From assembly GCA_003223645.1 (NCBI GenBank), contig QHVT01000003.1, positions 558,001-622,000 on the forward strand: DNA of 64,000 bases, read 5' to 3'. Within the stretch, counting starts at the first letter, position 1, and each line of letters starts with the position of its first letter. This stretch comes from Acidobacteriota bacterium (lineage in GTDB: Bacteria; Acidobacteriota; Thermoanaerobaculia; Gp7-AA8). The translations under genes were made by a program, and so were the position numbers. This document shows positions 8,599 through 61,238 of the stretch, piece after piece. A model generated the notes under the pieces. The model was not told the DNA's origin and did no database searches. It saw only the letters and a list, made by a program, of their open reading frames with translations.

Positions 8599-8982
8599 AT
8601 GTACACGCAGAAGAAACCGATCGAAAACACGCACATCGTTCGTGAGCGCGACCGACAGCGCTTCCGCGAGCTCCTCGCCGTCCTCTCCCTCGGCATCCCG
8701 ATCGGTCTGTTCCTCCTCCTCTTCACCTGGCAAAACCTCGAAGTCATCCGCCTGGGCCGCGAAGCCACGCGCCTCCAGAAATCGCTGAAGGACATCGAAG
8801 TCGAGCACAAGACCCTGCAGCTGGAGCTGGATCGGATGACGTCTTTCGAGACGGTCGAGACCAAGGCGAAGACGCTGGGCTTCGAAGCGACCGATCCGAA
8901 AGCGATCGTGATTGTCGATACGAAGGCAGAAGGCAGAAGGCAGAAGGCAGAAGGCAGAACCACTGAGGCGAGCGCGCCATGA
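8599..8982 (+). CDS. ftsL: Cell division protein FtsL
   Basis: A small bitopic divisome protein of 127 residues. A basic cytoplasmic N-terminus (RERDRQRFRELL) is followed by one membrane segment (about residues 26-46, LAVLSLGIPIGLFLLLFTW) and a periplasmic coiled coil (LGREATRLQKSLKDIEVEHK) ending in the TKAKTLGFEATDPKAIVIVD block common to FtsL/FtsB proteins. Position between rsmH and ftsI fits ftsL exactly. The last 20 residues, from about 108 on (KAEGRRQKAEGR), are encoded by the left arm of a GCAGAAG palindrome, so its natural C-terminus has been replaced or extended by repeat DNA. Confidence 0.88.
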   Translation: MYTQKKPIENTHIVRERDRQRFRELLAVLSLGIPIGLFLLLFTWQNLEVIRLGREATRLQKSLKDIEVEHKTLQLELDRMTSFETVETKAKTLGFEATDPKAIVIVDTKAEGRRQKAEGRTTEASAP

Positions 8983-56010: not shown

Positions 56011-56095
56011 AATTGAGGATTGAGAATTGAGGATTGAGGAAATGGATCACGAAGACCAACCCTCTTCCTCAATCCTCAATCCTCAATCCTCAATC
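56011..56095. repeat. Heptamer-armed palindrome, ATTGAGG/TCCTCAA type, copy 2
   Basis: AATTGAGG, ATTGAGA, ATTGAGG and ATTGAGG units on the left (56011-56040) and four TCCTCAA heptamers on the right (56066-56095), with a 25-base loop. The left arm provides the Shine-Dalgarno-like GAGG, the loop the ATG and the right arm the first codons of the RNase J gene. Confidence 0.95.
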
Positions 56096-57742
56096 CGCAG
56101 CGAAGCTGCGTCGACCCTCCGAGTCATTCCCTTGGGAGGACTCGGAGAGATCGGCATGAACCTGATGGTCTACGAGTGCGGCGACGACGCCATCGTCGTC
56201 GACTGCGGGATGATGTTTCCCGACGCCACGACGATGGGCGTCGACGTGATCGTCCCCGACATGACGTACCTCTTCGACAACGCGTCGAAGATCCGCGCGC
56301 TGTTTCTCACGCACGGCCACGAAGATCACATCGGCGCGGTGCCGTTTCTCGTCGAGCGATTGCCGCTGCCGATTTACGGAATGCCGCTGACGCTCGGCTT
56401 CGTCGCCGACAAGTTCGAAGAATTCGGCATCGACAATATCGAGCTGCGCGCGGTGATGCCGCGCGACGTGGTCGAAGTCGGCTCGTTCCGCATTGAGGCC
56501 ATTCGCGTCACGCATTCGATCGTCGACGCCCTCGGCTACGCGATCACGACGCCCGCCGGCACGATCATTCACACCGGCGACTTCAAGATCGATCACACGC
56601 CGATCGATGCGAAGCCGACCGACCTCGCGCGCTTCGCGCATCACGGCGAGCAGGGCGTGCTGCTGCTCGTCAGCGACTCGACGAACGCGCTCGTGCCCGG
56701 CCACTGCCCCTCGGAGCGCACGGTCGGCAGCGCGCTCGATCGCATCTTCGCGAACGCGAACGGACGCATCCTCGTCACGACCTTCGCGTCGCACATCCAT
56801 CGCGTGCAGCAGATCATCGACCTCGCGAAAAAGTTCCGCCGCAAAGTGCTGCTCGTCGGCCGCTCGCTCGTCGACAACGTCGAGACCGCGGAGCGACTCG
56901 GATACCTCCGCATTCCGCGCGAGGTCCGCGCGCCGTCCGCCGATTTGCCTGCACGTGATTTGGTGATCCTCACGACCGGCACGCAGGGCGAGCCGTCGTC
57001 CGCTCTGTCGCGCATGGCGATCGGCGAGCACAAACAGGTCGAGATCGAGCGTGGCGACGTCGTCGTCATTTCCGCGCGCACGATTCCCGGCAACGAGCGC
57101 GCGGTCGCGCACGTGATCGATCATCTCTATCGACGCGGCGCGGACGTCGTACATCACGAGCAGCCCGACGTGCACGTCTCCGGTCATGCATGTCAGGAAG
57201 AGCTGAAGCTGATGCTCAACGTGACGCGGCCGAAGTTTTTCATCCCGATGCACGGCACGCTACGGCATCTCATCTATCACGCGCGGCTCGCCAAGGAAGT
57301 CGGAGTGCCGCACGGCGTCGTGATCACGAACGGCCAGGTCGTCGAGATCGGAGGCGACTCGGTCCGCGTGCTCGAAGAGCGCGTGACGCAGGGGAAAGTG
57401 TTCATCGACTCGGAGGCGGAGGAGGTGCCGGAGGTGGTCGTGCGCGACCGGCAACATCTCGCCGAGGATGGGTTTGTGATCGCGGTGGTCGCGGTCGACA
57501 GCAACGGACGACTGATTCGCGATCCGGAGATCATCACGCGCGGACTCGTGCACGTCGACGAGAGCCAGGAGATCCTCGCCGACGTGCAGAAGACGATCGC
57601 CGACATGTTCGCGGCGAGTCCGGCAGAAGAGTTGCGTGATCCCGATCTGCTGCAGGAGAAAATGCGCGCGATGCTGAAGCGGTATTTCCGGAAGAGCATG
57701 GGAGCGCGGCCGATGATTCTTCCGGTGATTTGGGAGATGTGA
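56042..57742 (+). CDS. rnj: Ribonuclease J
   Basis: A metallo-beta-lactamase/beta-CASP ribonuclease with 5'-3' exonuclease and endonuclease activity in mRNA decay. The 566-residue protein has LRVIPLGGLGEIGMN, the zinc ligands THGHEDHIGAVPFL, FKIDHTPIDA, LLVSDSTNA, the beta-CASP motif ISARTIPGNE and HVSGHACQEEL, then the C-terminal region with HVDESQEILADV. The start lies in a repeat: ATG 56042 has GAGG nine bases upstream, both repeat-derived; TTG 56027 is the other option. Residues 1-18 ([16 protein letters not shown]) are repeat translation. No downstream start in front of the first beta strand is visible. Confidence 0.95.
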   Translation: MDHEDQPSSSILNPQSSIRSEAASTLRVIPLGGLGEIGMNLMVYECGDDAIVVDCGMMFPDATTMGVDVIVPDMTYLFDNASKIRALFLTHGHEDHIGAVPFLVERLPLPIYGMPLTLGFVADKFEEFGIDNIELRAVMPRDVVEVGSFRIEAIRVTHSIVDALGYAITTPAGTIIHTGDFKIDHTPIDAKPTDLARFAHHGEQGVLLLVSDSTNALVPGHCPSERTVGSALDRIFANANGRILVTTFASHIHRVQQIIDLAKKFRRKVLLVGRSLVDNVETAERLGYLRIPREVRAPSADLPARDLVILTTGTQGEPSSALSRMAIGEHKQVEIERGDVVVISARTIPGNERAVAHVIDHLYRRGADVVHHEQPDVHVSGHACQEELKLMLNVTRPKFFIPMHGTLRHLIYHARLAKEVGVPHGVVITNGQVVEIGGDSVRVLEERVTQGKVFIDSEAEEVPEVVVRDRQHLAEDGFVIAVVAVDSNGRLIRDPEIITRGLVHVDESQEILADVQKTIADMFAASPAEELRDPDLLQEKMRAMLKRYFRKSMGARPMILPVIWEM

Positions 57743-57747
57743 TTTTC

Positions 57748-57817
57748 CGGTTGCGCAGTTGCGCGGTCGCGCGGTGGTTTTGCCGCGCAACCGCGTGACC
57801 GCGCAACCGCGCAACCG
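57748..57817. repeat. Octamer-armed palindrome, GCGCAACC type, copy 3
   Basis: The left arm 57748-57775 begins CGGTTGCGCAGTTGCGCGGT, and the right arm 57790-57817 ends GCGCAACCGCGCAACCG. They are complementary with two mismatches in 28. It starts 5 bases after the RNase J stop and ends two bases before the uppP ATG, so uppP has no Shine-Dalgarno outside the repeat. Confidence 0.93.
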
Positions 57818-57819
57818 AT

Positions 57820-59235
57820 ATGTCAACCATCGAAGCCATCGTCCTCGGCCTCATTCAAGGCCTCACCGAATTCATCCCGATCTCCTCGACCGGCCACCTC
57901 AAGCTCGTCCCCGAGCTTCTCGGCTGGGGCGATCCCGGCGCGGCGGCGTCGGCGGTCATTCAGTTCGGAACGATCCTCGCCGTCATCATTTATTTCGCGC
58001 GCGACATCCTGCGACTGCTGATCGGATTCTTTCGCGGCCTCCGCCATCCCTTCCGGGATCCCGACTCGCGCGAGGCGTGGTACGTCATCTTCGCGACGAT
58101 CCCGATCCTCGTCCTCGGCGTATTGCTGAAAGACTTCATTCACGGCGTGTTTCGCAGCACCTGGGTCGTGATCTTTCAGCTCGTGTTCATCGCCTTTCTG
58201 ATGCAGGTGTCGGAGGCGTACGCGCGACGAAAGGGATTTCGCGATCGCGACGACTTCAACGCCAAGGACGCGTTGGCGATCGGATTCGGACAATGCATCG
58301 CGCTGATTCCCGGATCGTCGCGCAGCGGCTCGACGATCATGGTCGCGCTGTTCCGCCGTATCCCGCACGAATACGCCGCGCGCTTCTCCTTCATCATGAG
58401 CATCCCCGCGATCACGGCCGCGGGCTTGTACGAGCTTTTCTCCGAGCGCAAACATCTCGCCGCGATCGGCACGCAGCCGATCGTCATCGCCATCGCCGTC
58501 GCGTTCGTCTCCGGCTGGGCGTCGATCTGGTTCCTGCTGCGCTACCTCCGCACGCACACCACGCACATCTTCATCTACTACCGCTACGTCCTCGGCGCGA
58601 TCCTGGCGGTGCTTCTTCTGACATCATGGTCGCCGATGCACGCGGATGGAGTGGTGCACCACTCGTATCTCGCCCTCGGCGATTCCTACACGATCGGCGA
58701 GAGCGTCGACGCATCCGAGCGCTTCCCCGTGCAACTCGCGAAGCAGTTGAAGCTCGGTACGCCGCAGATCATCGCGAAGACCGGCTGGACGACGGACGAG
58801 CTGGACGCCGCGATCGACGCGGCAAAACCGACAGGTCCGTACGAGCTCGTCACGCTGCTGATCGGCGTCAACAATCAATATCGCGGCCGCAGTGCGGATG
58901 AGTACCGCACGCAGTTCGTCGCGCTGCTGAAACGCGCGATCGGATTCGCCGGCGGCAACGCCAGGCACGTCATCGTCGTGTCGATTCCGGATTGGGGAGT
59001 GACGCCGTTCGCGGAAGGACGCGATCGCGTGAAGATCGCGCGCGAGATCGACCAGTTCAACGCGATCAATCGCGAAGAAGCAGCGCGCGCGGGCGCGAAG
59101 TGGGTCGACATTACCGCGATCTCGCGACGCAGCGATCCGTCGCTCGTGGCGGGTGATGGACTGCATCCATCAGCGACAATGTACGCACAATGGGTGCAGG
59201 CGATTCTCCCGGAGGCGCGCGCAGCGCTCCGTTAA
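57820..59235 (+). CDS. uppP: Undecaprenyl-diphosphatase fused to an SGNH hydrolase
   Basis: A 471-residue fusion. Residues 1 to about 270 are UppP (BacA), the membrane enzyme that recycles undecaprenyl pyrophosphate: QGLTEFIPISSTGHL with the catalytic glutamate, then PGSSRSGSTIM near 163-173, and seven or eight hydrophobic segments. Residues about 280-471 form an SGNH/GDSL hydrolase: block I LALGDSYTIGES (Ser about 288), LIGVNNQYRG (GxN block), and GDGLHPS (Asp/His of block V). The frame is continuous; the join LLLTSWSPMHADGVVHH is just after the last membrane helix. An internal ATG at 58636 could give the SGNH domain alone. The SGNH part may deacylate a lipid-linked glycan. Confidence 0.9.
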   Translation: MSTIEAIVLGLIQGLTEFIPISSTGHLKLVPELLGWGDPGAAASAVIQFGTILAVIIYFARDILRLLIGFFRGLRHPFRDPDSREAWYVIFATIPILVLGVLLKDFIHGVFRSTWVVIFQLVFIAFLMQVSEAYARRKGFRDRDDFNAKDALAIGFGQCIALIPGSSRSGSTIMVALFRRIPHEYAARFSFIMSIPAITAAGLYELFSERKHLAAIGTQPIVIAIAVAFVSGWASIWFLLRYLRTHTTHIFIYYRYVLGAILAVLLLTSWSPMHADGVVHHSYLALGDSYTIGESVDASERFPVQLAKQLKLGTPQIIAKTGWTTDELDAAIDAAKPTGPYELVTLLIGVNNQYRGRSADEYRTQFVALLKRAIGFAGGNARHVIVVSIPDWGVTPFAEGRDRVKIAREIDQFNAINREEAARAGAKWVDITAISRRSDPSLVAGDGLHPSATMYAQWVQAILPEARAALR

Positions 59236-59591
59236 CGCACGCCGGCGCGGTGGCCGTACGCAACGGCCGCGAAGTGCTGCTCGTTCGCAGCACCGCGCGC
59301 GACGCCGTCGAGTGGGTGCTCCCGAAAGGGCACATCGAGCGGGGCGAGAGCGCGGAGCAGGCCGCGCTGCGCGAATTGCGCGAAGAAGCAGGCGTGATCG
59401 GACGCATCGTGCGGCCGGTTCACACGCAGCAGCTCCCCAACGGCGCGGTCATCGCGTTCTTCTTCGTCGAGGCGCACTCGCAAGTTGCACCCGAGGAATC
59501 GCGGGAATCGCGATGGCTGACATTCGATGACGCGATGCGGCTGGCGACCTTCGACGAGACGCGCGCGACTCTGGAGGCAGCATGGAAGTAA
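59190..59591 (+). CDS. Nudix hydrolase
   Basis: A 133-residue Nudix protein that hydrolyses a nucleoside diphosphate linked to another moiety. The Nudix box is complete: GHIERGESAEQAALRELREEAGV (residues about 47-69), with the REEAG glutamates binding the metal. It starts 46 bases inside the 3' end of the uppP fusion gene; a GTG near 59250 would shorten it without harming the domain. Substrate unknown; diadenosine polyphosphate hydrolases have similar size. It overlaps the next gene by 10 bases. Confidence 0.92.
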   Translation: MGAGDSPGGARSAPLTHAGAVAVRNGREVLLVRSTARDAVEWVLPKGHIERGESAEQAALRELREEAGVIGRIVRPVHTQQLPNGAVIAFFFVEAHSQVAPEESRESRWLTFDDAMRLATFDETRATLEAAWK

Positions 59592-60340
59592 CCCAGGTGT
59601 ACGTCGAGCAGGTGATCATCGGCGCGCTCGTGATTCTCACGGTGTGGGTGCTCGCGGCCGGCGTGCTTCCGGTGATTCCGAAAGAGTTAAACGAGATCGC
59701 CGGCGGCGTGATGTTCATCGGCGGCGCGTATGTCGCCGGCATCCTCTATGACCGCTGCGCGGACTCGCTCCTCGAGCGCATCGAGCGGCGTCGTCGGCTC
59801 CGATTCGCGATGAAACGGTTCGACCTCGAATGGCCGCTGAAACGGGATCCATTCCCGCAGTTCGGCCACAAGCAGCGGATCGAGTCGTCCGTCTTCGGAT
59901 ACATCAACTCGCGCATGCGCATTTTGCGCGCGCTGACGACGCTGCTGCCCGCGATGACCGTCGCGGCGCTCATCCTCAACGATCCGGGGAACCGATTCTT
60001 TGCCGCGCCTGCGACCGGTGTGATCTACGTGCTGTACGGCGTTCTCGCCTGCCTCGTGGAGTATCCGACGACCCATCACTGGAAAGAACTGAACACGCAT
60101 CGAGCACCGCCGTTCGTGCTCGAGCCGATCGTGCTCGGCTTCATCGCGATGACCGTACTGGCCTTTGAGGTTGCGAGACTCGATTGCGAGCATTGTGTGC
60201 GCGCACTCGAGATCGCGATCGCCGGTACGACGCTCACGCTGATCTCCGCGTGGGCATGGCAGCGCGTAAACGTGACGCTGATGCAGCTGATCATCACACT
60301 CCACTCGAAGACACCTGATACGCTGAAGGAATCAGCGTGA
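59582..60340 (+). CDS. Hypothetical membrane protein, six predicted helices
   Basis: I do not recognise this 252-residue protein. It has about six hydrophobic segments: VIIGALVILTVWVLAAGV, IAGGVMFIGGAYVAGILY, LTTLLPAMTVAALIL, ATGVIYVLYGVLACLV, VLGFIAMTVLAFEVA and AIAGTTLTLISAWAW. A 60-residue basic cytoplasmic loop between helices 2 and 3 contains RIERRRRLRFAMKRFDL. A Cys pair (DCEHC) lies before the last helix. It overlaps the Nudix gene by 10 bases and is followed closely by another small membrane protein, so the genes 57820-60780 form one transcription unit. Confidence 0.75.
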   Translation: MEVTQVYVEQVIIGALVILTVWVLAAGVLPVIPKELNEIAGGVMFIGGAYVAGILYDRCADSLLERIERRRRLRFAMKRFDLEWPLKRDPFPQFGHKQRIESSVFGYINSRMRILRALTTLLPAMTVAALILNDPGNRFFAAPATGVIYVLYGVLACLVEYPTTHHWKELNTHRAPPFVLEPIVLGFIAMTVLAFEVARLDCEHCVRALEIAIAGTTLTLISAWAWQRVNVTLMQLIITLHSKTPDTLKESA

Positions 60341-60357
60341 ACGCGGAGGTCGTCCCG

Positions 60358-60780
60358 ATGGCTGAAGAAACGCAGAGCTACGAGAATCACAAACGCTATT
60401 ACTGGCCTTACCACTTCGTCGCCATGCCGGTGCTCATCCTTAACCTGCTGGTGCGCATCGCCTTCGTCGTGCGCTGGTGGTCGTGGCCGAATCTGTGGGA
60501 AGTCGTCGTCGCCGTCGCGTTAGTCGCGCTGACGGCCTCCGCGCGCGTCTTCGCGCTGACGGTACAGAATCGATTGATCCGTTTCGAAGAGCGCGCGCGT
60601 TTGCGCGAGCTCGGCATCGACGCATCGCGCTACTCGACGAGCCAGTTGATCGCGATGCGCTTCTGCTCCGACGCCGAACTGCCGGAGCTCGCGCGCACGA
60701 TCGCGGACGAGAACCTGCGCAGCGGCGACGCGATCAAACGCCGCATCCGCAGCTGGCGGCCCGATTACCTGCGCGCGTGA
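60358..60780 (+). CDS. DUF6526-like two-helix membrane protein
   Basis: A 140-residue protein with two N-terminal membrane helices (HFVAMPVLILNLLVRIAFVV and VVVAVALVALTASARVFAL) and a C-terminal helical tail (RFEERARLRELGIDASRYS, IADENLRSGDAIKRRIRSW). The start ENHKRYYWPYHFVAMPVLI matches the DUF6526 pattern as I remember it. I chose ATG 60358 because GGAGG lies 8 bases upstream; GTG 60337 overlaps the previous stop. Function unknown. The stop overlaps a GTG of the next gene. Confidence 0.75.
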   Translation: MAEETQSYENHKRYYWPYHFVAMPVLILNLLVRIAFVVRWWSWPNLWEVVVAVALVALTASARVFALTVQNRLIRFEERARLRELGIDASRYSTSQLIAMRFCSDAELPELARTIADENLRSGDAIKRRIRSWRPDYLRA

Positions 60781-60782
60781 GA

Positions 60783-61238
60783 ATGCGTTGCATCGCCGGC
60801 CTGCTCCTGTTCGCAGCGGCGTGTGCGCAAACACCTGACACGCCGCCGTCGCAGCCCGTGAAGAATGCCGCGGCCGCTCCGCCGCCGGCACCCGCACCGG
60901 CTCCGCGTGCCGAACATCCGCTCGATCGTATTCCGACCGCGCAATCACCGAACGATCCGTGGCGCTTTCCGCCGATCCGTCCGGTCTTGGTCCATTCCGT
61001 GCCGGCGCGTTACACCGAGGTCGCGCGAAAGGCGCGTCTTCAGGGCGACGTCATCCTCGAGTTGTTGATCGAGCGCGATGGTCGGGTGAGTAACGCGAAG
61101 GTCCTCAAGTCGCTGCCGATGGCGTTGGACATGTCGGCGCTGACCGCCGTGAGGGAATGGCGCTACACGCCCGGCAAGGATCGAAACGGCGCGCCCGTGC
61201 GAACGCTGTGGAACGTCACCGTGCCGTTCCGCCTCTAA
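60783..61238 (+). CDS. TonB C-terminal domain protein, possible lipoprotein
   Basis: A 151-residue exported protein. MRCIAGLLLFAAACAQTPD looks like a lipoprotein signal with the acceptor Cys near residue 14, although the lipobox is not strict. A Pro/Ala-rich spacer (AAAPPPAPAPAPRAEHP) follows, then a TonB C-terminal domain: PARYTEVARKARLQGDVILE, LIERDGRVSNAKVLKSLPM, LTAVREWRYTPGKDRNGAPV, ending VTVPFRL. Unlike real TonB it has no membrane-spanning N-terminus, as in other orphan TonB-domain proteins of acidobacteria. It is the end of the run of plus-strand genes and converges with hpt. Confidence 0.85.
   Translation: MRCIAGLLLFAAACAQTPDTPPSQPVKNAAAAPPPAPAPAPRAEHPLDRIPTAQSPNDPWRFPPIRPVLVHSVPARYTEVARKARLQGDVILELLIERDGRVSNAKVLKSLPMALDMSALTAVREWRYTPGKDRNGAPVRTLWNVTVPFRL

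Follow-up and report, generated by a model that had tools for sequence, protein, structure and literature searches.

Why should an undecaprenyl-diphosphatase (UppP, BacA) and a hydrolase of the SGNH type be encoded in one reading frame, and does their union link two reactions or does it only place one enzyme beside the other? The question is raised by a locus in a 64,000-nt stretch of contig QHVT01000003.1 from an Acidobacteriota bacterium (hereafter the window), in which the first-pass annotation had described a complete UppP joined to a complete SGNH hydrolase within 471 codons, and had suggested that lipid-carrier recycling is thereby coupled with the deacylation or O-deacetylation of a substrate that is linked to a lipid or belongs to the wall. 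The features considered below are as follows, where "congener" denotes G001, the only further member of the genus among the genomes returned by our searches.

56027..57742, + strand: RNase J gene (rnj), the upstream and conserved neighbour of uppP
57743..57819, no strand: palindromic repeat element reaching from the rnj stop to the uppP start; hairpin of -59.3 kcal/mol, z -8.3
57820..59235, + strand: fused UppP-SGNH ORF, 471 aa; open frame with Pfam BacA and Lipase_GDSL_2
57820..58608, + strand: UppP-derived part, residues 1-263; Pfam BacA, 80% identical to UppP of the congener
58564..58620, + strand: last helix of UppP as modelled by AF2, residues 249-267; the DNA alignment with the congener traces its end to the hydrolase signal peptide
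58609..58662, + strand: junction and linker, residues 264-281; former h/c-region of the signal peptide, pLDDT <50 at residues 271-279
58666..59232, + strand: SGNH hydrolase domain, residues 283-471; Pfam, catalytic blocks, AF2 fold like that of TesA-type chains
59190..61238, + strand: block of genes that separates the fusion from hpt (Nudix protein, 252-aa protein, DUF6526 protein, TonB_C protein) and is missing there in the congener

The structural part of the earlier description is confirmed by the open frame, by two Pfam domains and by the full set of catalytic motifs. All 471 codons are open, the sole stop being terminal; BacA matches residues 6-261 (E 1.5e-80, 271 bits vs a cut-off of 33.4) and Lipase_GDSL_2 residues 285-456 (E 1.2e-21, above its cut-off). 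The UppP half also yields a full-length match to the NCBIfam model TIGR00753 (239.1 bits vs a cut-off of 217.5), and it matches the narrower PRK00281 models with scores below their cut-offs. It contains Q13-xxx-E17, SSTGH (S22, S23 and H26) and PGSSRSG from position 164, corresponding to (E/Q)xxxE, SSTGH and PGxSRSG, which we take to be the UppP/BacA motifs. In the hydrolase half all SGNH blocks are present, namely the GDS of block I (S289), G322 of block II, the GxN of block III (N351) and the DxxH of block V (D446 and H449), and these five residues are invariant across an alignment of 34 sequences. The open frame taken by itself is weak evidence, because this G+C-rich DNA leaves another forward frame with only 2 stops over the same interval (the third has 12). 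However, comparison with the congener reveals that each half has been under purifying selection since the two genomes split: dN is 0.131 and dS 0.556 over 263 codons of the UppP half, and dN is 0.146 and dS 0.599 over 187 codons of the SGNH half, i.e. dN/dS of ~0.24 for each, values that span the whole time since that split and thus do not show selection on both halves after the fusion. A chance ORF in G+C-rich DNA is ruled out by the two full-length conserved families and these ratios. The fusion, known from one assembly only, is the only BacA-family match in its host genome (G000; 51 contigs, 6.38 Mb, 96.7% complete), where it lies on a 714-kb contig and is matched without a gap over residues 1-471.

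The origin of the join is revealed by the congener, in which the gene order is rnj, uppP, SGNH gene, hpt, and in which the two genes are separate: uppP occupies L031:7860-8684 and the SGNH gene starts from the ATG at 8681, so that they overlap by four bases (ATGA), with the SGNH start codon inside the uppP end ATGAAATGA. The N-terminus of the congener's SGNH protein is MKRATAILVLLACCTPMPAA, and its start MKRATAILVLLACCTPMPAAPHARYLALGDS is presumably a lipoprotein-like signal, as judged by the lipobox rule rather than by a predictor. Alignment of the window with this DNA shows a 47-nt gap at the join, with a 6-nt difference in the opposite direction shortly 3' of it; after the gap, homology to the signal core starts again at TTCTTCTG. 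The missing ~47 nt took the uppP stop together with the start and the signal n-region of the hydrolase. Beyond the gap, the codons for LLLTSWSPM in the window align with those for VLLACCTPM in the congener, from which it follows that what was once the signal core now forms the end of the last UppP helix. The Cys-Cys pair of the congener corresponds to Ser269-Trp270, so that both lipobox cysteines are gone, and with the n-region missing as well the hydrolase half carries no lipoprotein signal with a lipobox Cys. A frameshift artefact as the sole cause is ruled out, since the stop and the signal n-region found in the congener are missing from the window DNA.

The separate genes are probably the older state, because the genes are separate in the family. 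A gene for the SGNH hydrolase occurs in 10 of the 17 other family genomes (in G003 it is cut by the contig end): it adjoins uppP in the congener, lies 410 kb away on the same contig in G011, and is found on a different contig in the other eight. The uppP-hpt interval lacks the SGNH gene in all nine other family genomes that show both genes, and in eight of these nine rnj also precedes uppP; the nine do not include five genomes without hpt in the stretch seen (G004, G008, G010, G013 and G015) or two with divergent uppP genes (G009 and G016). Thus, among the family genomes examined, an SGNH gene stands between uppP and hpt only in this genus. The same domain pair was searched for in other genomes, and the window's own protein was the only one found to span both halves: among the matches listed, the fusion is absent from 147 other genomes of the class (140 of 148 matched) and from 296 other sampled genomes of the phylum (153 of 297 matched at E <= 1e-30), the two samples sharing some genomes and a fusion with a distant hydrolase half being liable to be missed in both. 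None of 295 matching plasmid records covers 80% of the fusion query, no relative of the fusion was confirmed on viral contigs, and the fusion was not found in 80 loci of 484 relatives on genome contigs, where only the congener's contig (L044) has both genes, separately. Among the papers listed in a literature search for BacA/UppP fusions, none describes a UppP-SGNH fusion by title and the start of the abstract. It had been anticipated that separate genes in all close relatives would speak against the fusion; they are indeed separate in the relatives examined, which refutes the generality of the arrangement but not the fusion itself. Within the genomes and papers searched, the domain pairing appears to be new, seen in one genome so far and apparently of plain origin.

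The surroundings of the fused gene also differ from those in the congener, which lacks the palindromic element of 57743-57819 at the same spot. This element has at least 76 matches in its own genome, both strands of the same places being counted and 40 of 239 candidates scored, and is REP/MITE-like. An inverted-repeat element of a different, CCTGAGCGAAGCGAAGG type was noticed by eye between uppP and hpt in G003 (L046:6826-6990). On the 3' side, the Nudix gene, from its ATG at 59190, shares 46 nt with the end of the fusion, and an in-frame GTG is present at 59250. A Nudix gene and two small membrane proteins had been described here: the Nudix gene stands, and what follows it is to be corrected to a 252-aa protein without a Pfam match, a 147-aa DUF6526 protein and a TonB_C protein. 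The DUF6526 protein gave no match in G001, G012, G003 or G011, in a search run without a positive control.

A structural model of the fusion was calculated with AF2 from an alignment of 38 rows, with 6 UppP and 31 trimmed SGNH rows picked for correct register. The mean pLDDT is 87.1 and the pTM 0.65. The last UppP helix comprises 19 residues, residues 271-279 form a low-confidence linker, and from residue 281 on the SGNH fold is confident (block means of pLDDT 92-98). Residues 11-40 of UppP, for which few rows were in the alignment, are weak (block means 56-68); because of this and of the pTM value, the placement of the domains relative to each other is not fixed. The top Foldseek matches are BacA (5OON and 6FMT), followed by TesA, EstA, Axe2 and other SGNH chains, with a TM-score of 0.78 to 5OON by target length. 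As regards topology, the BacA structure paper proposes that both termini are periplasmic (PMC5852022). In a study of E. coli, joining beta-lactamase at Phe273 to the full-length BacA is reported to have given a protein that increased C55-PP phosphatase activity ~30-fold, complemented a strain with thermosensitive bacA and conferred resistance to ampicillin; a fusion without the last helix is reported to have been inactive (PMC4641660). From the former result, BacA can function in E. coli with a periplasmic hydrolase at its C-terminus; from the latter, the hybrid last helix of the window protein could be harmful to UppP. We infer that this hybrid helix would serve as well.

We propose, with a probability of roughly 60%, that the fusion is a change of anchor, by which the hydrolase became tethered through UppP while the two activities stayed independent. 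The ancestor would have resembled the congener in that its uppP overlapped by four bases with the next gene, that of an SGNH hydrolase which was exported and probably anchored by a lipid. A ~47-nt deletion would then have created the single frame, and the last helix of UppP, running from the cytoplasm to the periplasm, would have taken over the part of the signal peptide in exporting the hydrolase, leaving it tethered to the outer face of the inner membrane by a flexible linker of ~15 residues. The lipobox cysteines could have been lost once the new anchor existed. Expression as one chain, periplasmic placement and lack of cleavage are presumed here, and each enzyme would keep its own task, i.e. 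dephosphorylation of C55-PP on the one hand and esterase- or lysophospholipase-like hydrolysis on the other, without catalytic coupling. The genome contains 8 PAP2 matches above the cut-off, which may represent other C55-PP phosphatases; survival with the fusion is therefore not compelling evidence of its UppP activity. In the sequence the join is real, and it looks like a local accident that changed the anchor of an esterase rather than like a new pathway.

The substrate of the hydrolase bears on the question of coupling, and the family offers some hints. The hydrolase has profile matches to the solved structures of, among others, a carboxylesterase, acetyl xylan esterases, a sialate O-acetylesterase and TesA, and no NCBIfam equivalog scored over its cut-off. 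Similarity to the hydrolase was used to select 82 loci for a scan, and its ORF was recognised in 76 of them. A kynureninase-like ORF occurs in 15 loci, and in 13 of these (L055, L059, L061, L065, L076, L079, L084, L085, L087, L088, L101, L108 and L119) it lies directly downstream of the SGNH gene on the same strand, with a spacing from a 48-nt overlap to a 62-nt gap; in the other two it is convergent (L122) or ~2.5 kb away (L075). The hosts of the 13 are Bacteroidota (including three Lacihabitans, which are not independent), two members of Ignavibacteria lineages and one unclassified bacterium. Against the TIGR01814 cut-off of 246.4 bits, four of the six kynureninase candidates tested score higher and the other two lower, with 234.5 and 220.5 bits. 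In L061 a tryptophanase lies ~3 kb upstream, and in L088 the ORF just upstream has an N-terminus nearly the same as that tryptophanase. Puzzlingly, many of the kynureninase-linked SGNH copies seem, by eye, to be exported. A kynureninase-like neighbour is absent from all 11 loci (L031-L041) that come from relatives of the window, and in the host genome itself the best kynureninase match reaches 20.9 bits against the same cut-off, so that a kynurenine role there is unsupported. The repeated adjacency is an argument against wall polymers as the dedicated substrates of the family, although it assigns no substrate here; a part of the hydrolase in tryptophan/kynurenine breakdown is worth a test.

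Several other explanations have to be weighed against the change of anchor. One of them, which we consider unlikely, is that the protein is made fused and then cut by signal peptidase after the hybrid last helix (e.g. after ADG or MHA), freeing the hydrolase into the periplasm. The join does descend from a signal peptide and retains Pro-Met and small residues (LLLTSWSPMHADG), but the n-region is gone and the hydrophobic stretch is now a UppP helix in the model. Also rather improbable is the coupling put forward in the first-pass annotation, whereby both halves would share a lipid-linked substrate or handle consecutive ones, and selection would have favoured the fusion for that reason. In its favour, both active sites would face the periplasm, and both halves show purifying selection over the time since the split from the congener; however, a pair that is linked only in this genus, separate in its congener and not adjacent elsewhere in the family, with SGNH relatives upstream of kynureninase and PAP2 proteins as other possible phosphatases, does not bear the claim out. 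Its stronger version, in which the periplasmic pocket of UppP presents a membrane lipid to the tethered hydrolase so that recycling and acyl-ester hydrolysis are coupled in a selected bifunctional enzyme, is in our opinion less probable still.

A sequence or assembly error, or a stop at W270 lost by one base error, with a leaderless hydrolase starting from the ATG at 58636, would explain the open frame in a more trivial way, and we find it about as improbable as coupling in its general form. The sequence comes from a single assembly, the TGG codon of W270 is one base from a stop, and apparently leaderless members do exist in the family (L038 and L039). Yet the loss of ~47 nt with the signal n-region is beyond what one base error produces, all but one of the six neighbouring proteins tested match their families over almost the full length (the exception lacks a Pfam match), and by eye no purine-rich ribosome site precedes 58636. 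That the fusion and a separate hydrolase are both made is the least probable of these alternatives: in-frame start codons exist at GTG 58609 and ATG 58636, but the sequence preceding them looks unfavourable, and a complete signal peptide would be lacking from the product.

The anchor change can be set beside known systems. Integral membrane enzymes with a fused SGNH domain, as in the window protein, are known among the AT3-SGNH acyltransferases. In these, the membrane part is an acyltransferase-3 rather than UppP, and the two domains reportedly act together (PMC7448272). TesA-type hydrolases (thioesterase I/lysophospholipase L1; PF13472) share the SGNH blocks and fold, and the congener's copy bears a signal, whereas the window hydrolase has <20% identity to the TesA chains among the matches listed. 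In the YbbAP-TesA complex (9ge8), a partner embedded in the inner membrane reportedly keeps a TesA-type hydrolase there in a similar way, but the chains are separate and the partner is an ABC transporter rather than UppP (PMC12646458). To BacA/UppP (TIGR00753, PF02673; 5OON) the protein is linked by its full-length match above the cut-off, motifs and predicted fold, and it differs by ~200 C-terminal residues of hydrolase and by the replaced end of the last helix. The artificial BacA-beta-lactamase of E. coli combines a complete BacA with a C-terminal periplasmic hydrolase and is reported active, but it is a laboratory-made topology probe (PMC4641660).

The fusion may thus be regarded as the natural counterpart of that probe. 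Together, the window and its congener document almost step by step how an exported protein can lose its anchor and take over the last transmembrane helix of its neighbour. Coupling of the two activities, if demonstrated, would make the fusion more important, and the repeated link with kynureninase makes the function of the hydrolase family testable.
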